Source: Cyclobacterium xiamenense
Lineage (GTDB): Bacteria > Bacteroidota > Bacteroidia > Cytophagales > Cyclobacteriaceae
Length of the DNA stretch: 45,272 nt
Direction: 5' to 3'
NCBI RefSeq assembly: GCF_009467825.1
Contig: NZ_WIOK01000038.1
Location: 1-45,272, forward strand
Position numbers and translations under genes: made by a program. Shown here in pieces: positions 23,209 to 31,168 of this stretch. Positions within the stretch are counted from its first letter, which is position 1. Each line of letters starts with the position of its first letter. A model generated the notes under the pieces. It was not told the DNA's origin and searched no databases. It saw only the letters and a list, made by a program, of their open reading frames with translations.

Positions 23209-24426
23209 CTACCCTGCCGAATTTCTGCTGATCGGCATGCTCATGCAGCGGGGCCCTCCCAGCCCCCTGGATAATTCGGAAGAGGGCATTTCCAGTACCT
23301 CTACTCCAAGCTCCCGCAGCGCCCGATTGGTGTGCTTGTTGCGGTTGTAGGAAATCACTTTTCCCGGAGCGATGGTAAACACATTGGCCCCATCAAACCA
23401 CTGCTCGCGCAGCGCATATTCCTGGTTTACTTTATCGGTTCCGATTACCTCCAAATCAGGAATCTCCCGCTTCAAAATCTCACGGAGCTGCTCCTTTACG
23501 TGATGCCGCTTAATATGCACCTCGGTGCCCCCGTCTTCTTTTCGGGTATACAGGGAGATTTTCTGCACGGATTGTATGGCGTCCGGATAGGTGAGCACCT
23601 TGTTTTGGTCCAATATGGTAAAAACAGTATCCAAGTGCATGAAGTTACGCTTCTTGGGCAGGTGTACCTCGTACACCCGATCGATACTACCGGAAGAGAT
23701 TAGCGTTTTTGCTACGTGGTAAATCGCTTTCTCTTCGGTTCGCTCCGAGAATCCGATGGCCACAGCCTTTTCATTCAAAATGATTACATCGCCTCCTTCC
23801 AGTGAGGCGGGATTGTTGTGGCTTACTGGCGGGTAACACTTTTTGACCCTTTCCTTAAAGAGCGGATGATTTTCAAAAATCAGCCGAACCATATTCGCCT
23901 CTCGTTGCCGCTCGGGAAGGCGCATGGCAGAAAAAAGCATCCCTCCAGGTACAATGGCGGCGGTATCTCGCTGAAAGTACAGGTTGGGACAGGGTGGAAT
24001 TAAAAAAGCCACGTCCAGCAGGTCTGCCAGGGAACGGCTACTGAGCTTACCGCGTACTTCGTGTACCTTTATCCCGGAAATCAAAGCCTGTACACATTCC
24101 GAAACCGACAATACGCCGAGCAGATCCTCCGTAAGGTGATCCAATCGGGATGCGGCCAGGGCTTCTTGCATCAATTGCCGCAAAAGCTGGCTATCGGTCA
24201 AAATCTCTGAGAGCAAATGCTCGAAAAAATATACCCTTGCCCCGCAGCAGTCCTGAATCAAGGTGGTAAACACATCGTGCTCCCGTTGCATCTCCTCCAG
24301 GTACGGAACGTCTTCAAATAATAGCAACTTTTTATTGTAGGGTGTCAGCCGGTCGATCTCTTTTCCCGGCCGGTGCACCAAAACCTCCCGAAGGGTTCCG
24401 TATTCTGAATCAATCATCAATTGCAT
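23209..24426 (-). CDS. arcA: Arginine deiminase
   Basis: The 405-residue protein hydrolyses L-arginine to citrulline and ammonia. Features of the guanidine-modifying superfamily are visible: LREVLVHRPGKEIDRLTP at the start, LYFQRDTAAIV, NNPASLEGGDVI, FMHLDTVFTIL with the catalytic His and Asp, and the catalytic Cys394 in GGPRCMSMP. No arcB or arcC lies next to it, so the classical fermentative operon is not formed here; it may serve arginine catabolism or nitrogen supply. It lies 60 bases after tyrA on the same strand, with a palindrome ATACTAGTAT in the gap. Confidence 0.92.
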   Translation of the reverse strand: MQLMIDSEYGTLREVLVHRPGKEIDRLTPYNKKLLLFEDVPYLEEMQREHDVFTTLIQDCCGARVYFFEHLLSEILTDSQLLRQLMQEALAASRLDHLTEDLLGVLSVSECVQALISGIKVHEVRGKLSSRSLADLLDVAFLIPPCPNLYFQRDTAAIVPGGMLFSAMRLPERQREANMVRLIFENHPLFKERVKKCYPPVSHNNPASLEGGDVIILNEKAVAIGFSERTEEKAIYHVAKTLISSGSIDRVYEVHLPKKRNFMHLDTVFTILDQNKVLTYPDAIQSVQKISLYTRKEDGGTEVHIKRHHVKEQLREILKREIPDLEVIGTDKVNQEYALREQWFDGANVFTIAPGKVISYNRNKHTNRALRELGVEVLEMPSSELSRGLGGPRCMSMPISRNSAG

Positions 24427-24486: not shown

Positions 24487-25335
24487 TTAATCCCTTAAAT
24501 CCAAAATATCCCTGATTTTATTGGCTTCGGTCATCTCCTGGTGTAAGCCTTCGGCATCCCCCTGTGCCAGTAGATTCCGAAAGTGGGACAGGTGTTCAAG
24601 GTAGCTGTCCAGGGCCTCCAATACGTTTTTTTTGTTTTCAAAAAATATAGGTGCCCACATATCCGGGGAACTTTTGGCGAGGCGCACGGTGGATGCAAAG
24701 CCGCTACCCGCCATGTCAAAGATGTTTTTTTCATCACGGGTCTTGTCCAAAACCGTTTTTCCCAGCACGAAGGAGGATACATGCGAAAGGTGCGACACAA
24801 AAGCCAGGTGCAAGTCATGATCGACGGGATCCATAAAGCGAAGCTTCATATTGAGCGCCTCAAAGACCTCGTAGGCCAATCCCTTCAGCTGCACGTCAGT
24901 CTTTTCCATCTCGCATAGGATCAAAACCTTACCGTCAAAGAGTTTCTCTTCAGCAGCCTGAGGGCCGGAATTTTCGGTGCCAGCAATGGGATGAACCGCC
25001 AGGTATTGTGATCGCTTGGGATGAGCGGCCATTTGCCGGCAAAGCTGATCTTTGGTGGAACCAAAATCCATAACCAGGGTGTCCGGACCTACCTGGCCCA
25101 GCGTTTGGTCCAGCAAGGCATACAAACTATCCACGGGGGTAGCCAGGACCACCAGTGAGGTATCACTATCTGGCCGTTCACGTTTTTCTCCAATCAAACC
25201 CATCTGAAGCGCTGTCTCCAAATGGAGCGGATTTTTATCGAATCCTGTTAGTTTCCAGTCCGGCCGGGATTTTTTCAATGCAAGCGCAAAGGATCCACCC
25301 AATAGTCCCAGCCCGATGATGTGTACTTTTTTCAT
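24487..25335 (-). CDS. tyrA: Prephenate dehydrogenase
   Basis: This 282-residue enzyme oxidatively decarboxylates prephenate (or arogenate) towards tyrosine. It has the Rossmann motif IIGLGLLGGSFALAL (residues 6-20), DFGSTKDQ, VHPIAGTENSGP with the active-site His, and HLAFVSHLSHVSSF with the second conserved His. The C-terminus is helical, with no ACT or chorismate mutase domain. It is the last gene of the aromatic operon, one base after the aminotransferase stop. Confidence 0.93.
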   Translation of the reverse strand: MKKVHIIGLGLLGGSFALALKKSRPDWKLTGFDKNPLHLETALQMGLIGEKRERPDSDTSLVVLATPVDSLYALLDQTLGQVGPDTLVMDFGSTKDQLCRQMAAHPKRSQYLAVHPIAGTENSGPQAAEEKLFDGKVLILCEMEKTDVQLKGLAYEVFEALNMKLRFMDPVDHDLHLAFVSHLSHVSSFVLGKTVLDKTRDEKNIFDMAGSGFASTVRLAKSSPDMWAPIFFENKKNVLEALDSYLEHLSHFRNLLAQGDAEGLHQEMTEANKIRDILDLRD

Positions 25336-25336
25336 A

Positions 25337-26491
25337 TTAGTCGTATTTTACCAACCTGTTCAATGCTTCTTTTATCTGTTGTTCGTCCACGCAGAGGGAA
25401 AACCGAACGTATGCCGCTCCGCCACTTCCAAAGATCTCTCCCGGCGTGATGAAAATATCCTTTTCGTACAACAGCCGGTCTACCAGATCGATGGCCTTTG
25501 TACCTGAGGGCACCTTTGCCCAAACAAACATTCCTACCCCACCTTCAGCTACCTGCAAACCCAGCATGGAGGCCATCTCCAACACCAGGTATTTACGGGC
25601 TTTGTAAATGGCATTGGTGGATGTAATCCAGGATTTATCCAGGCTCAGGGCGCTGATGGCTCCTTCCTGAATACCCAAAAACATGCCCGAATCCATGTTG
25701 CTCTTTACCCGCAAAACGGCCTGCAGGTAATCCTGTCTGCCTGCCAACATGCCGACCCTCCAGCCAGGAATGTTGAACGTCTTGCTCAGGGAATTCAGTT
25801 CAAGTGCATGGTTTTTTGCTTCCGGCAACTCCAGAATGCTCATGGGCTGTTCGTTCAGGATAAAACTGTAGGGGTTATCGTGAACCAGCAGAATATCGTT
25901 TCTTCGCACAAAATTCAGCAGCTTTGCGAAGAGTTCTTTGCTCCCGGGCGCTCCGGTTGGCATGTGGGGATAGTTCACCCACATCAGCTTCACCCGCGAA
26001 AGGTCCCGGTTTTCCAGCGCTTCCCAATCGGGCTCCCACTGCGTACCTTCCAACAAGTCAAAATAGACGGGATGCGCATGAAGCAGCCGGGTCACCGAGG
26101 TATAGGTGGGATATCCCGGATTGGGAACCAGCACTTCATCTCCTTCGTTCAAAAACGCCATCGAAACGTGCATGATGCCTTCCTTCGACCCCATCAGGGG
26201 AAGAATTTCGGATTGTGGGTCCAGCGGAACCCCGTAATTTCTGGCATAAAAGTCAGCCATGGCCTTCCGCAAGCGCGGAATACCCTGGTAGGATTGGTAC
26301 CCATGCGCGTCCGGGAGATCGGCGGTCCGTTTGAGCGCCTCGGTCACCCGGCGATCGGGAGGCAAATCCGGACTTCCAATCCCCATATTGATGATGGGCT
26401 TTCCAGCTTCCCGAAGTTGCTGCACTTCTTTGAGCTTTTTGGAGAAGTAATATTCCTGAACTTCCCCCAAGCGGTCTGAATATCCTTTCAT
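25337..26491 (-). CDS. Class I/II PLP aminotransferase, probably acting on prephenate or aromatic keto acids
   Basis: The 384-residue enzyme belongs to PLP fold type I. Key residues are visible: GSKEGIMH near residue 101 (phosphate binding), Asn173 in NYPHMPTG, Asp205 and Tyr208 in HDNPYSF, the PLP Lys237 in SLSKTFNIPGWR, with Arg245 in the same motif, and a C-terminal RFSLC for the substrate carboxylate. Its place between pheA and tyrA suggests transamination of prephenate, phenylpyruvate or 4-hydroxyphenylpyruvate; this specificity is inferred from context only. Its start overlaps the pheA stop (ATGA, 26488-26491). Confidence 0.85.
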   Translation of the reverse strand: MKGYSDRLGEVQEYYFSKKLKEVQQLREAGKPIINMGIGSPDLPPDRRVTEALKRTADLPDAHGYQSYQGIPRLRKAMADFYARNYGVPLDPQSEILPLMGSKEGIMHVSMAFLNEGDEVLVPNPGYPTYTSVTRLLHAHPVYFDLLEGTQWEPDWEALENRDLSRVKLMWVNYPHMPTGAPGSKELFAKLLNFVRRNDILLVHDNPYSFILNEQPMSILELPEAKNHALELNSLSKTFNIPGWRVGMLAGRQDYLQAVLRVKSNMDSGMFLGIQEGAISALSLDKSWITSTNAIYKARKYLVLEMASMLGLQVAEGGVGMFVWAKVPSGTKAIDLVDRLLYEKDIFITPGEIFGSGGAAYVRFSLCVDEQQIKEALNRLVKYD

Positions 26492-27318
26492 CCTTTTCTG
26501 TTTTGGTAAGCCCCCAATAGTTTAACCGTTCCGTACTTCTTCTCAATCAGGTCCAACGCCTCCTCAAATTTGGATTCGTCGGCAATCAGGGTATCGATAA
26601 AAAAAGTATACTCCCAGGGTTTACTCATCACGGGAATGGATTGAATCTTGGTCAGATCCAGGTCGTAGGCACTCATCAGTGTGAGTAATTTTGCCAGAGC
26701 GCCTTTTTCGTTGCGAATGGTAATCTTCAGGCTGGCTTTGGACGGAGAGGCCTCCCTTACCGGTTGTTCCTTCTGCAGGATAATGAATCGGGTAAAGTTA
26801 TTGGCGACTGTCTGTATGTCTTTCGCCAGGATTTCCAATCCGTAATACTCGGCGGCTTTGCTGCTGGCTACCGCGGCCAGTCCCGTTAGTTGCTGCTCTG
26901 CGATAATTTTAGCCACATAAGCTGTATCGACATCATCCACTGCTCGAATCGCCGGGTGTTGCGCAAAAAACTGCTTGCATTGCAGCAGGGCCATGGGGTG
27001 TGACCTGGCTTCCCGAATATCCGACAGTTGCTGCCCGGGAAGCGCCATGAGATTATGGGAGATGGGCAGGTAGTGCTCATCCACCACGTACAGGTGATGC
27101 CGGTCAATGATATCGTAATTGGGCAATATGGCGCCGGCAATGGAGTTTTCGATCGCCATTACGGCGTAGTCCACCGTGCCGTTCTCGACACTTTTCGCCA
27201 CTTCCTCGAAGGTATGGTAGCCGACCGGTTCGATCTCCGCACCAAAATATTGCTGTGCCACCTGGTGATGGAACGAACCCAGCACACCCTGTATGGCTAT
27301 TTTTAACTTTTTCTTCAA
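26488..27318 (-). CDS. pheA: Prephenate dehydratase
   Basis: The 276-residue protein converts prephenate (or arogenate) to phenylpyruvate (or Phe). The dehydratase domain covers about residues 4-185: KIAIQGVLGSFHH, DYAVMAIENSIAG, and NNFTRFIIL with the catalytic Thr. An ACT regulatory domain follows (about 195-270), here with SLKITIRNEKGALAKLL and IQSIPVMSKPWEYTFFID; the usual ESRP is changed to MSKP. Feedback inhibition by Phe is typical of the family but cannot be shown here. There is no fused chorismate mutase; that activity is on the DAHP synthase fusion. Confidence 0.94.
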   Translation of the reverse strand: MKKKLKIAIQGVLGSFHHQVAQQYFGAEIEPVGYHTFEEVAKSVENGTVDYAVMAIENSIAGAILPNYDIIDRHHLYVVDEHYLPISHNLMALPGQQLSDIREARSHPMALLQCKQFFAQHPAIRAVDDVDTAYVAKIIAEQQLTGLAAVASSKAAEYYGLEILAKDIQTVANNFTRFIILQKEQPVREASPSKASLKITIRNEKGALAKLLTLMSAYDLDLTKIQSIPVMSKPWEYTFFIDTLIADESKFEEALDLIEKKYGTVKLLGAYQNRKG

Positions 27319-27387: not shown

Positions 27388-28626
27388 TCACCCTCCACGC
27401 TGGTCTGTATACACCACTGTTAGCCCGAGTAATTCACAATGCTTCCAAAAGCTGGGGTACGATTTGTTCACCACCGAAGGATCCACGATACAGAGCTGTG
27501 TCCGCGTGAGCAAGGGCATGAATGCCATGGCCATCCGGTGATCGTCGTACGTATCAATTACTACCTTGTCCGGGATGGCGCTTGCCGGAACCAGGGTAAA
27601 TATACCACTTTTTCGCTCTTCCAGTCTCGCTCCAATTTTTGCCAATTCCTGCTGCAAGGCATAGATGCGGTCCGTTTCCTTGATTCGCAAACTTTCCAAC
27701 CCGCTGAAATCGGAAGTTTGGCCCGTCAGGGCACAGGTTACCGCTACCGTTTGGGCCAAGTCCGGACAATGGGTAAAATCAAATGCAGGTACCCCAAGTA
27801 CTGCAGTTTTTTGCAAGCGGACCCCTCCTGGCTCAAAGGTGCTTTTTACACCCAACTGGGTCATGATTTCGACAATGCGGGCATCTCCCTGCAGGCTATC
27901 CGCCTTCAATCCTTCCAAAAATAACTCACCGGAATCGGCAGCTGCCAACAGGCTAAACCAATAGCTGGCACCGGACCAATCGCTTTCGACGGAAAAGGAG
28001 GTGGGCTGGTAGTGCTGGGGAGCTATCTGAATCCGATTTCCCTCAAAAAGCGCCTGTACGCCAAACGCTTTCATTAACTCCAGGGTCATGGTAATGTAGG
28101 TCACCGAACCGACTTTCCCGCTAAGGTTTAGCGTCAAGCCCTCCGGTAGCAAGGGCGCGTTCATGAGCAATGCCGAAATGTACTGACTGCTCACATCTCC
28201 CCGGATAGTTATTTCGGCCGATTTTTGCCCGTCAAATCCGTTGATCTGTAAGGGAGGGTATCCTTCCTGCTTTAGGTAATCGATATCCGCACCGATTTCA
28301 CGCAACGCATCCACCAAGATACCAATCGGTCGCTCGCACATCCGGGGGGTACCTGTCAGTATTTTCTTCTTATTATTCAACGCAGCATAGGCCGTCAGGA
28401 AACGCATGGTAGTGCCGGCATCCAACACGTCGTACACCTCTGGATCCTCCCGGAGCAATCGGATCATTGTCTGCGTATCTCTGGCCTCAGCCAGGTTGGA
28501 AAGACGGTTTTCGCCGGAGGTCAGCGCATCAATGATGAGTACCCGGTTACTTTCGCTCTTGGAAGAAGGAAGGGGGATACGGATGTTACCAAAGGTATTT
28601 TTTACCGGTAATTCGATGGTATTCAT
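27388..28626 (-). CDS. aroA: 3-phosphoshikimate 1-carboxyvinyltransferase (EPSP synthase)
   Basis: This 412-residue enzyme joins shikimate-3-phosphate and PEP. It has the substrate-binding SKSESNRVLI segment (about residue 22), LDAGTTMRFLTAYAAL, the active-site LRIKETDRI with Glu and Lys, YDDHRMAMAFMPL, and DPSVVNKSYPSFW at the end. The length is slightly below the usual 425-430. The usual LPGSKSxxNR is here LPSSKSESNR. It lies 39 bases after aroB in the aromatic operon. Confidence 0.95.
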   Translation of the reverse strand: MNTIELPVKNTFGNIRIPLPSSKSESNRVLIIDALTSGENRLSNLAEARDTQTMIRLLREDPEVYDVLDAGTTMRFLTAYAALNNKKKILTGTPRMCERPIGILVDALREIGADIDYLKQEGYPPLQINGFDGQKSAEITIRGDVSSQYISALLMNAPLLPEGLTLNLSGKVGSVTYITMTLELMKAFGVQALFEGNRIQIAPQHYQPTSFSVESDWSGASYWFSLLAAADSGELFLEGLKADSLQGDARIVEIMTQLGVKSTFEPGGVRLQKTAVLGVPAFDFTHCPDLAQTVAVTCALTGQTSDFSGLESLRIKETDRIYALQQELAKIGARLEERKSGIFTLVPASAIPDKVVIDTYDDHRMAMAFMPLLTRTQLCIVDPSVVNKSYPSFWKHCELLGLTVVYTDQRGG

Positions 28627-28665: not shown

Positions 28666-29703
28666 TCAGTCGGCCAAACTGTTGTAGTACGCTAGCGCTT
28701 CGATCACAGCTTCTTTTCCAACGACGATGTTGAAGTCGCAGGACCCGATTCGTTTCAACAAGGAAAAGTTCAGGGCCTCTCCATCATTTTTCTTGTCCTG
28801 AAAACAACGCTTGATGATGGCATTGAAATCGGCATCCGCGATGGAGGTTTTTCCAAACACCGCCAGCAATTTTTGCTGGATGGTGTCCAGGTCCGCGGCG
28901 GGCATGCGTAAAAACTTGTGGGACAAATACGCTTCCGTAATCATACCGATAGCGATGGCTTCGCCATGCAGCAAATGGTACGGGGTATCCAGGTAATGGG
29001 ATTCGATGGCGTGGCCAATGGTATGACCAAAATTAAGAATTTTTCTCAGTCCGTCCTCCTTCGGATCTTTGTCGACTACTTCCCGCTTGATACCCACCGA
29101 AACCGCAATGATATCCTTCCAGTGCTGGCGTTGCCAGTTTTCTGTTTTTAAACTGTAAAAATAATTCTCGTTCCGGATCAGTCCATGCTTGAGCACCTCT
29201 GCATAGCCCGACCGCAATTCGGCTTCGGGTAGGGTCTGCAAAAACTCATCGCTAATCAACACGCCTTCCGGCTGATTGAAAACGCCGATGTGATTTTTAA
29301 ATCCATTGAAATCAATGCCCAATTTGCCCCCCACACTGGCATCCACCTGGGAAAGTAGCGTGGTGGGAATATTGACAAAGCGAATACCTCGCTTGTAGGT
29401 GCTGGCGCAAAAGCCCCCCATATCTCCGGTTACTCCCCCTCCCAGATTGAGGATAAGGGTTTTTCTGTCAAAATTAGCATCCGTCATCCATTGCCAGATG
29501 TCCCGGCAGGTGTCCAGGTTTTTATGCACCTCCCCTGCTTCAAAGGCATGCATGGCATGCTCCGGAAGCGCTGCTGAAACAATGGGGTAGCAATGGTTGA
29601 TGGTTTGACTGTCCATAAGTACCCCCAATTTCGAGTATTTTTTGGTAGTTAGGTAGCGGGGCAAGTCCAGCGAAATATCGGAAGAAAAGAGTAGTGTGTC
29701 CAA
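28666..29703 (-). CDS. aroB: 3-dehydroquinate synthase
   Basis: The 345-residue enzyme cyclises DAHP to 3-dehydroquinate using NAD and zinc. The NAD site reads NLGGGVTGDMGGF, the active-site loop LLSQVDASVGGKLGIDF, and the zinc His residues lie in ILNFGHTIGHAIE and LLHGEAIAIGM. It is in the aromatic operon, but 159 bases separate it from the preceding DAHP synthase gene, filled by a long imperfect hairpin. Confidence 0.95.
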   Translation of the reverse strand: MDTLLFSSDISLDLPRYLTTKKYSKLGVLMDSQTINHCYPIVSAALPEHAMHAFEAGEVHKNLDTCRDIWQWMTDANFDRKTLILNLGGGVTGDMGGFCASTYKRGIRFVNIPTTLLSQVDASVGGKLGIDFNGFKNHIGVFNQPEGVLISDEFLQTLPEAELRSGYAEVLKHGLIRNENYFYSLKTENWQRQHWKDIIAVSVGIKREVVDKDPKEDGLRKILNFGHTIGHAIESHYLDTPYHLLHGEAIAIGMITEAYLSHKFLRMPAADLDTIQQKLLAVFGKTSIADADFNAIIKRCFQDKKNDGEALNFSLLKRIGSCDFNIVVGKEAVIEALAYYNSLAD

Positions 29704-29862: not shown

Positions 29863-30969
29863 TCAAACAGACTTTCCTGAAGGTAATCCTTCTCTGAGTT
29901 TTTTCTCCTGTCGTTTTACGGATTCTTCGTGAATGCAATAAAGCAATTCCTTCATAAACTTCTCGCTAAGGTTTTTCTCCACGCCCTTCTGCGTTCGTGA
30001 ATCCATGACGTGCTTCCAGCGATCTGCCTGAAAAACGGTCAGGTTGTGTTCCCGCTTATGGGCCCCGATCTGATCGATGATGGAAAAGCGTTCGGCCAAC
30101 AAATCCATCAATTGGTCATCCAGATGGTCTACGGCATTTCTCAAGTCCTGGAGTTTTTCGGAAGGATGCTCGGCTTGGAGCGTGTGCTTGAAATCAATCT
30201 GATCCAGGATTTCCCGCAATTGACGGGGGGTCACCTGCTGCTTGGCATCACTCCAGGCATTGTCCGGGTCGTGGTGCGTTTCGATCATCAGGCCATCCAG
30301 TCCAAAATTGATTGCCCGCTGCGCGGTTTCCAGAATCCCTGTTCTGTTTCCTACGATGTGACTCGGATCGTTGATCACCTGCATGCCTTTCCACAGTCGT
30401 TTCAAATGGATTGGCATGGACCAATTGGGCTTGTTTCGGAATTTTTTATCGTAGGCGTCGCTGAATCCCCGGTGAATTGCAGCCAACTTGTTTACGCCTA
30501 CTGCTTGCAAACGCTCCAGGGCGCCTCTCCAAAGCTCCAGGTCTGGATTCATGGGGTTTTTTACCATCACGGGAATGTCCACTCCTTTCAGGGCATCGGC
30601 GATCTCCTGTACAGCAAAGGGGTTTACCGTGGTACGGGCGCCTATCCATAGAATATCGACTCCGTGCTTCAGTGCAGATTCCACGTGTGCCGTATTCCCT
30701 ACCTCTGTGGTAATGGGGATGTTTAGGTGGTGGCGTACGATTTCCATCCATTTCAGTCCGTCCTCGCCGATCCCTTCGAAACTCCCGGGTCGGGTTCTTG
30801 GTTTCCAGATACCTGCCCGGAATACGTCCGGAACGGCATTGGCTTCTTTCATGTCCAGGCAAACCTTTTCGATTTGCTCCGGGGTCTCCGCACTACAAGG
30901 TCCGGCGATGATGAGGTGCTCCCTGTCCAGGCCCAAGCCCCAGTCTTTCGTTTGTAAGTGATTTTCCAT
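29863..30969 (-). CDS. Bifunctional DAHP synthase / chorismate mutase
   Basis: The 368-residue protein joins two activities. Residues 1 to about 265 form a DAHP synthase of the KDO8P-synthase-like type: IIAGPCSAET, VFRAGIWKPRTRPGSFEG, LWIGARTTVNPFAVQE, PVMVKNPMNPDLELW and IETHHDPDNAWSDAKQQ. Residues from about 275 are an AroQ chorismate mutase helix bundle: LRNAVDHLDDQLMDLLAERF and IGAHKREHNL. It makes the first product of the pathway and converts chorismate to prephenate, so one polypeptide handles entry and branch point. It is the first structural gene of the operon, preceded by the attenuator. Confidence 0.95.
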   Translation of the reverse strand: MENHLQTKDWGLGLDREHLIIAGPCSAETPEQIEKVCLDMKEANAVPDVFRAGIWKPRTRPGSFEGIGEDGLKWMEIVRHHLNIPITTEVGNTAHVESALKHGVDILWIGARTTVNPFAVQEIADALKGVDIPVMVKNPMNPDLELWRGALERLQAVGVNKLAAIHRGFSDAYDKKFRNKPNWSMPIHLKRLWKGMQVINDPSHIVGNRTGILETAQRAINFGLDGLMIETHHDPDNAWSDAKQQVTPRQLREILDQIDFKHTLQAEHPSEKLQDLRNAVDHLDDQLMDLLAERFSIIDQIGAHKREHNLTVFQADRWKHVMDSRTQKGVEKNLSEKFMKELLYCIHEESVKRQEKKLREGLPSGKSV

Positions 30970-30987
30970 TTTGATTTGAGGTTAAAT

Positions 30988-31017
30988 AAAAAAGCCCGAC
31001 TCTCTCGAATCGGGCTT
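30988..31017 (-). terminator. Attenuator terminator in the aromatic operon leader
   Basis: On the minus strand AAGCCCGA (31017-31010), a ten-base loop, TCGGGCTT (30999-30992), then a T run to 30988. It lies between the leader peptide stop and the DAHP synthase start, so it would stop transcription before the operon. Its 5' arm overlaps CCGATTCG (31013-31006), which pairs perfectly with CGAATCGG (31072-31065) inside the leader peptide gene: the antiterminator. Confidence 0.88.
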
Positions 31018-31036
31018 CCTGTTTGTTTATCTTTTG

Positions 31037-31132
31037 TTATTTTTTCTCAAGACAATACGCAGCTCCGATTCGGCCGTAGGGACGAAAGTAAAAGTAAAAG
31101 AAGCTAAAGTAGGTAGCTGCGAATTTTTTCAT
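31037..31132 (-). CDS. Phe/Tyr-rich leader peptide of the aromatic operon (31 codons)
   Basis: Too short for usual gene finders, this frame runs from ATG 31132 to TAA 31037. It encodes MKKFAATYFSFFYFYFRPYG and eleven more residues (RIGAAYCLEKK). Six Phe and five Tyr occur among 31 residues, with YFSFFYFYF at 8-16. Phe and Tyr are the products of the operon that follows. CGCAGCT (31121-31115) can pair with AGCTGCG (31064-31058), which overlaps the segment next to the antiterminator. This gives the 1:2, 2:3, 3:4 logic of trp/phe-type attenuation: ribosome stalling at Phe/Tyr codons frees segment 2 to pair with 3 and prevents the terminator. Confidence 0.85.
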   Translation of the reverse strand: MKKFAATYFSFFYFYFRPYGRIGAAYCLEKK

Positions 31133-31136
31133 GCAT

Positions 31137-31168
31137 CAAATGTAAACTTTCCCCTAGTAAAAATCAAA
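31137..31168 (-). promoter_or_regulatory. Promoter of the aromatic operon (TTTG-N20-TACATTTG)
   Basis: On the minus strand TTTG (31168-31165), 20 bases, then TACATTTG (31144-31137) matches the Bacteroidota consensus TTTG / TAnnTTTG with correct spacing. Transcription should start within a few bases of the leader peptide ATG (31132), so the leader mRNA may have almost no 5' untranslated region. Confidence 0.75.

Follow-up and report, generated by a model that had tools for sequence, protein, structure and literature searches.

The window, by which we mean the whole 45,272-nucleotide stretch of Cyclobacterium xiamenense DNA analysed here, carries on its minus strand six aromatic amino acid genes in a row: a DAHP synthase-chorismate mutase gene (DAHPS; 29863-30969), 3-dehydroquinate synthase (aroB; 28666-29703), EPSP synthase (aroA; 27388-28626), prephenate dehydratase (26488-27318; PF00800), a class I/II aminotransferase (25337-26491) and prephenate dehydrogenase (tyrA; 24487-25335). 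These comprise genes of the shared aromatic pathway together with the terminal Phe and Tyr steps. Ahead of the first gene, on the same strand, lies a compact leader. Its promoter, of the Bacteroidota type, consists of a -33 element TTTG (31165-31168) and a -7 element TACATTTG (31137-31144) spaced 20 nucleotides apart, and 4 nucleotides beyond the latter is the ATG of a 31-codon ORF, MKKFAATYFSFFYFYFRPYGRIGAAYCLEKK (31037-31132), whose translation contains six Phe and five Tyr residues. At codons 8-16 (31085-31111) these residues form the run YFSFFYFYF, in which Phe outnumbers Tyr by 5 to 3. Between the ORF and the DAHPS gene stands an intrinsic terminator, AAGCCCGATTC-GAGA-GAGTCGGGCTT with a T run (30988-31017; stem 31017-30992, six T at 30993-30988). 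Both the small ORF, with its many codons for the amino acids that the operon makes, and the intrinsic terminator between it and the first gene are features of trp/phe-type attenuators. As a whole, the 199-nucleotide stretch folds better than its own shuffles (z -2.31).

Three pairings compete within this leader. Segment 1, CGCAGCT (31115-31121, codons 4-6), and segment 2, AGCTGCG (31058-31064), are the 5' and 3' arms of a 1:2 helix. The 5' arm of a putative antiterminator, CGAATCGG (31072-31065), begins after a 12-nucleotide spacer (31073-31084, codons 17-20) and pairs with CCGATTCG (31013-31006), and the third pairing is the terminator itself. All of these elements, from the promoter to the DAHPS gene, had been located by an earlier sequence-only reading, and we recover each of them in the window sequence at the position it gave. 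As first described, the 1:2 helix and the antiterminator do not overlap. We find that the antiterminator is longer: after a bulged A, a further GCU (31063-31061) pairs with AGC (31016-31014), giving arms of 31061-31072 and 31006-31016. This extension runs into segment 2, which makes the 1:2 helix and the extended antiterminator mutually exclusive in the window. The antiterminator 3' arm is in turn part of the terminator 5' arm, and the antiterminator excludes the terminator, as in trp/phe-type attenuators. A small hairpin, TTCG (31086-31083) with CGAA (31072-31069), also occupies the antiterminator arm (31069-31086), and the stop codon of the leader lies about 27 nucleotides beyond that arm.

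Close relatives were collected by a scan of genome contigs, from which we took the best 80 of 107 related loci, all named and nearly all labelled Cyclobacteriaceae; among these, the closest named relatives of the DAHPS protein are from Cyclobacterium species (95-97% identity). The sequence-only reading had hinged on the peptide being conserved in such relatives, and a leader is kept before the same DAHP synthase-chorismate mutase gene in all 80 of these best loci. The search, which demanded an ATG start, recovered the standard form directly in 78, and these together with the window make up a set of 79 leaders. In L107 (labelled Spirosoma), one of the two loci left out, the leader is present farther along, the match having begun in another, adjacent DAHPS gene. 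In the other (L086, also L135, from Nitritalea), part of the run is replaced by four Leu codons and the antiterminator and terminator are intact. Across the 79 loci, codons 8, 9 and 11-16 specify Phe or Tyr in 630 of 632 cases; the codons that differ from the commonest one comprise 41 synonymous changes, six Phe/Tyr swaps, one Trp and one Ser. Codons 10 and 18-20 vary more than the run positions, so the conservation of the run is not simply a matter of relatedness, and the codon comparisons show coding constraint on the Phe/Tyr run.

The helices were examined in an alignment (A1) of 74 of the 79 leaders, made after removal of L108 and of four exact duplicates. In A1, 99.1% of 814 terminator cells are paired. 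Shuffles give 1.5 +/- 1.1 double-change cells and the alignment itself 9, which at the sequence level marks a structure conserved with compensatory changes. Pairing is nearly complete in the antiterminator (99.7% of 592 cells) and in its extended form (99.3% of 814), each pair of the GCU/AGC extension being formed in 70-74 of the 74 leaders; the antiterminator is so nearly constant in the close set that covariation there is uninformative. The four pairs of the TTCG/CGAA hairpin form in 72-74 of 74 leaders, with one double change (L083). The search for covarying stems suggested by the sequence-only reading thus succeeded for the terminator and had little variation to work on in the antiterminator, and pairing is well conserved in both of these stems. 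The 1:2 helix fared less well. It is imperfect in the close set, with 75.2% of cells paired in A1; this is better than every slide, and its 21 double-change cells exceed the 14.7 +/- 2.5 of shuffles (reached by 1 in 500). It is ahead of the shuffles on three of five measures in A1 and not above them on the other two, double-change pairs (455 of 500) and pair types (63 of 500).

More distant members of the family help with both the antiterminator and the 1:2 helix. A first covariance model, built from 30 leaders, reached E<=0.001 in 88 of the 196 genomes of the family and E<1e-20 in 50 of those 88. Among 20 weaker family hits, 19 have aromatic leaders, one locus having two, and one (L154) has no ATG-led aromatic leader. 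Most of the divergent members keep the helices but make them with other letters, such as GTGAACCG / CGGTTCAC in L142 and L151 and ACAAGGAC / GTCCTTGT in L136. We compared 35 representatives, 20 of them divergent and 15 taken from the close set, with letter shuffles. At p<0.05 the antiterminator is above shuffles in 32 of the 35 (combined p ~3e-34); for the 1:2 helix the number is 14 (combined p ~1e-9), the other 21 not being significant singly. Because relatives are counted as independent, both combined values exaggerate the significance, and the counts retain the few representatives in which our rule for finding the run mis-set it (L140 and L151 in the 1:2 test). The 1:2 helix is weaker in the close set but returns, spelled quite differently, in some of the divergent leaders. 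Taken together, these comparisons demonstrate the helices at the level of sequence. At L148 (G215:C1), two Phe/Tyr leaders lie about 1.5 kb apart: one precedes a DAHP-synthase-like gene of another type, and the other lies on the far side of that gene.

The same representatives mostly keep a similar distance between the run and the antiterminator. The last Phe/Tyr codon lies 10-14 nucleotides from the antiterminator arm in 30 of 35, the others, kept in the counts, being L135, L138, L139, L140 and L148b; across A1 the 12-nucleotide spacer has neither gained nor lost a base. A ribosome covers up to 12 nucleotides downstream, according to passages of PMC4833913, and the spacer is thus what a stalled ribosome would need to leave the arm free. 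We therefore propose that it serves as a ribosome-footprint ruler, conserved as such across the aligned sequences. As judged by distances, the run is placed so that a ribosome held on it would free the antiterminator arm and block segment 1.

A second model, built from 30 family leaders, was run against genomes of the order and the phylum and matched 45 of 241 and 62 of 395, respectively, at E<=0.001, own family included. Of the new loci from the order search we inspected 12. Nine of these, including two in the window's own family, have aromatic leaders; L175, L179 and L180 have no ATG-led aromatic leader. From the phylum search, 20 of 23 new loci inspected have aromatic leaders, L194 and L197 have Thr/Ile leaders before aspartokinase-like genes, and L203 has no leader. 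In the own genome, the next model hit reaches only E 0.15, and L206, scanned among the lower hits, is without a leader. The genes that follow the leaders (ten proteins identified by Pfam, others by eye) encode DAHPS, prephenate dehydratase, chorismate mutase, prephenate dehydrogenase, phenylalanine hydroxylase and a class I tRNA synthetase, which we read as the Tyr type rather than the Trp type, the Pfam family covering both.

In these sequences the composition of the run follows the downstream gene. Ahead of phenylalanine hydroxylase (5 leaders) and the Tyr/Trp-type tRNA synthetase (2), Tyr makes up 96-100% of the run, with 36 Tyr versus 1 Phe in all; its share is about 43-44% before DAHPS (17 leaders) or prephenate dehydratase (19), and 67-71% in four leaders before other aromatic genes (p = 6e-10, with codons treated as independent and relatives uncorrected). 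This count excludes the close set, L135, L148b and L184, whose peptide is identical to that of L183. L171 and L172, from another family of the order, have Tyr-only leaders (SYYTYAYY...) before class I Trp/Tyr-type tRNA synthetase genes. When phenylalanine hydroxylase was taken irrespective of leaders, 52 of 148 phylum genomes matched, and a Tyr-rich leader precedes the gene in just one (L229) of the best 24 loci examined (L211-L234); the copy in the own genome has none. Judged by these loci, predicted Tyr attenuation of phenylalanine hydroxylase is a minority arrangement.

For the window leader, the codons suggest that Phe and Tyr are both sensed. The same attenuator could be effectively Phe-only, with the Tyr codons there for other reasons, and this is the alternative that survives best. 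Its main precedent is aroR-aroF of Corynebacterium glutamicum, in which ribosome stalling controls a DAHP synthase operon (Neshat et al. 2014, in PMC11802643). Like the window, that operon has a leader with Phe and Tyr codons; it belongs to another phylum, has only Phe-Tyr-Phe and, according to passages of PMC11802643, reportedly reacts to Phe but not to Tyr. By analogy, and as those passages describe it, aroR is the nearest functional precedent for the window leader. The excess of Phe in the window run and the replacement of Tyr by Phe at codon 13 in 5 of 79 loci point the same way. Against this, Tyr is retained at codon 8 in 78 and at codon 15 in all 79 loci, the operon makes both amino acids, and the Tyr-rich, nearly Phe-less sister leaders suggest that the mechanism is able to read Tyr. 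We consider a Phe-only response unlikely, if still worth keeping in mind, and prefer sensing of both.

The promoter bears on how the leader peptide would be translated. Its -7 box (TAnnTTTG, with TTTA in place of TTTG in 16 of 79 loci) stands 4 nucleotides before the ATG in 75 of the 79 loci and 5 nucleotides before it in the other four, and in the close set the letters in between vary while the spacing is fixed; among upstream positions, about 1% carry this same relaxed box. Sequence comparison thus demonstrates a constant promoter-to-ATG spacing. In Flavobacterium psychrophilum, the promoter box is placed at -12 to -5 in passages of PMC9723704, which with a 4-nucleotide spacing makes the A of the leader ATG (31132) the predicted +1. 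The leader mRNA is therefore probably leaderless, with its start codon at +1, and the near-leaderless translation that had been suggested from the window alone gains support from the relatives.

A true start site farther upstream than 31132, with the peptide initiated from an ordinary 5'UTR, would agree with several relatives outside the order in which, by eye, about 15-30 nucleotides separate box and ATG; L182 and L200, also outside the order, have 5 and 4. Among divergent family loci the distance is exactly 4 nucleotides in 10 of 19 by eye and longer or unclear in the others. We regard an upstream start as improbable for the window, given the 4-5 nucleotides in 79 of 79 close-set leaders with varying letters and the presence of a single match to TTTG-N17..22-TAnnTTTG, the promoter described above, on the minus strand between 24300 and 31300. 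As a genome-wide signature of leaderless genes, promoter-to-ATG spacing gave no clear enrichment in the own genome (14 matches versus 10 for a reversed control). Leaderless or near-leaderless mRNAs are rare in the phylum: they make up 3.7% (<10 nucleotides) in Bacteroides thetaiotaomicron, whose phylum has mRNAs without Shine-Dalgarno sites, according to passages of PMC7366714, and 5.5% of the F. psychrophilum transcriptome in those of PMC9723704. Leader peptides without a 5'UTR, including leuL, trpL, ilvL, thrL and others, are described for Streptomyces lividans in passages of PMC8079986, and absence of a 5'UTR is frequent among Streptomyces leader peptides; these actinobacterial attenuator peptides share the lack of a 5'UTR predicted for the window leader, and leaderless mRNAs are common in Actinobacteria, at 17% versus the two Bacteroidota figures.

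We conclude, with a probability of roughly 0.93, that the locus is a ribosome-mediated transcription attenuator that would read the charging of tRNA-Phe and tRNA-Tyr. The attenuator proposed by the sequence-only reading is supported by the conserved peptide, promoter spacing, terminator and antiterminator, and more weakly by the 1:2 helix. For the transcription start, leader translation, folding order and regulation in the cell we infer the following sequence of events. RNA polymerase would start at or beside the A of the leader ATG, and a ribosome would load on the 5' AUG and trail the polymerase. If either charged tRNA, for Phe or for Tyr, is scarce, the ribosome would stall in the run at codons 8-16, keeping segment 1 unpaired, with its front edge about 12 nucleotides ahead and just short of the antiterminator arm. 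The free arm CGAATCGG-A-GCU could then capture the emerging AGC-CCGATTCG, no terminator would form, and the aromatic operon would be transcribed. If both tRNAs are plentiful, the ribosome would pass through the antiterminator arm to the stop codon, keeping the arms apart; the 1:2 helix and the TTCG/CGAA hairpin would then hold the antiterminator arm while the terminator folds.

Minimum-energy folding is consistent with the individual structures of this model. With segment 1 free, the complete leader RNA folds into the 1:2 helix, the small hairpin and the terminator. As long as the terminator 3' arm is absent, the antiterminator has the lowest energy in each of four situations: without a ribosome, with one paused at codon 8 or codon 16, and with one that has reached the stop codon. 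Once the RNA is complete the terminator wins instead, whether or not a stalled ribosome is masked. Both folds are thus available, and energies do not separate the two states of the attenuator. The switch must therefore be kinetic, set by ribosome position; as in known attenuators, a stalled ribosome would leave the arm free, and a running one would cover it or stand between the arms.

We also weighed a sensor of the TnaC type, in which nascent-peptide arrest would sense a free amino acid through the peptide, with no codon-by-codon stalling. A partly conserved peptide, RIGAxYC, does follow the run in the close set. At the RNA level, however, this stretch is the antiterminator arm plus segment 2, and third codon positions are kept there as well (CGA in 77, ATC in 79 and GGA in 75 of 79 loci). 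Divergent members mostly retain the RNA pairing but end in unrelated C-terminal peptides, and the run tolerates Phe/Tyr swaps. We rejected peptide arrest as very improbable. The small ORF might also be incidental to a terminator controlled by a riboswitch or a protein, for which a structured leader with a terminator and an only sub-threshold Rfam resemblance to leaders and sRNAs could be cited. This is less probable still and was likewise rejected, because it gives no role to the Phe/Tyr run, its frame, the ruler or the gene-matched composition, and because we see no conserved aptamer-like core in A1 beyond the competing helices.

Enterobacterial attenuators such as pheL-pheA and trpL combine a run of regulatory codons, a 1:2 helix, an antiterminator and an intrinsic terminator with a biosynthetic operon downstream. 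The window leader has the same layout of elements as these systems (RF01859 Phe_leader, RF00513 Trp_leader). It differs from them in its letters, its phylum and its place before DAHP synthase, in its mixed run (8 of 9 residues Phe or Tyr), and in a start codon at the predicted +1 and a stop codon well past the antiterminator arm. RF01859 aligns to the window leader over its full length at 22.9 bits, below the gathering threshold of 55. No Rfam 15 family reaches its gathering threshold in the window, so the element could be annotated from the covariance model built here. At a relaxed threshold, BTnc231 also matched (25.2 bits, E 0.002, gathering 80.4); the alignment consists largely of A/U stretches and the candidate was rejected.

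Within the phylum, passages of PMC9723704 report 'strong clues' from transcript mapping for leader attenuation before amino-acid operons of F. psychrophilum, and name no operon, peptide or structure. Among open-licence literature, as judged by titles and the starts of abstracts, we found no paper on this Phe/Tyr element. The mechanism itself is already known; the window leader is apparently uncatalogued. What appears to be new is this particular Phe/Tyr family found across the phylum, together with its Tyr-only versions matched to the downstream gene and a start codon placed at the predicted +1. The family is concrete, conserved over a wide range and open to experiment, in a phylum whose mRNAs are without Shine-Dalgarno sites. 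Should translation begin at a 5' AUG, the leader would be a clean natural reporter for leaderless initiation and for transcription-translation coupling in Bacteroidota, and the Tyr-only leaders of phenylalanine hydroxylase and tRNA synthetase would be natural controls for amino-acid specificity.

Candidate leaders for other amino acids are found in the own genome (G000) as well: MKQTNQIWWWLSYFF before trpE (C29, L273), one ending HHAGHHSA before hisG (C9, L255), MFLLVSVVVLIVIII before ilvD (C18, L286) and one ending TTTTITG before the aspartokinase-homoserine dehydrogenase gene thrA (C26, L289). Across the genus, candidate leaders rich in Trp (WWW), His and Ile/Leu/Val (VSxVVLIVIII) precede trpE, hisG and ilvD, respectively, each of them in 12 of 12 genomes; before thrA a Thr-rich candidate is present in 6 of 6 genus genomes fetched. 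In the own genome, box and ATG are 9 nucleotides apart in the trp leader and 7 in the his leader; no promoter box that close was seen for the ilv and thr leaders. On balance, these sequences incline us to a broader picture, in which Bacteroidota would have an enterobacterial-like set of attenuators (Phe/Tyr, Tyr, Trp, His, Ile/Leu/Val and Thr), the aromatic, his and trp leaders of Cyclobacterium would start at or within about 5 bases of +1 (as would the aromatic leaders of its relatives), the DAHPS leaders would integrate Phe and Tyr, and their Tyr-only sisters would confer tyrosine-specific attenuation on phenylalanine hydroxylase and tyrosyl-tRNA synthetase in some lineages. If this is true, such near-+1 starts would mean that loading of the sensing ribosome is set by a 5' AUG and not by a binding site.

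How far the control extends depends on the operon, which the sequence-only reading had given six genes. The six aromatic genes do lie in a row on the minus strand, and we infer their co-transcription. The DAHPS-aroB gap of 159 nucleotides (with the listed TTG start of aroB) argues for some caution, as it contains a long inverted repeat and a promoter-like TACCTTTA and hence a possible second promoter; the genes downstream of the gap may have a promoter of their own. The inverted repeat (29859-29731, minus strand; folding z -4.5) is followed by a T stretch and by the promoter-like TACCTTTA. It occurs as one copy in the own genome, and is perhaps an internal terminator or a processing site. Its outer arms, TTAAACCCGTTTTATT and a AATAAAACGGGTTTAA-like sequence, are retained together with the T stretch in 8 of 15 sequences (the window and seven Cyclobacterium), and its interior diverges strongly between species groups. 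Directly 3' of tyrA on the minus strand lies an arginine deiminase-like gene (23209-24426), which scores above the Pfam ADI cut-off but falls short of those curated by NCBI for its arginine deiminase models.
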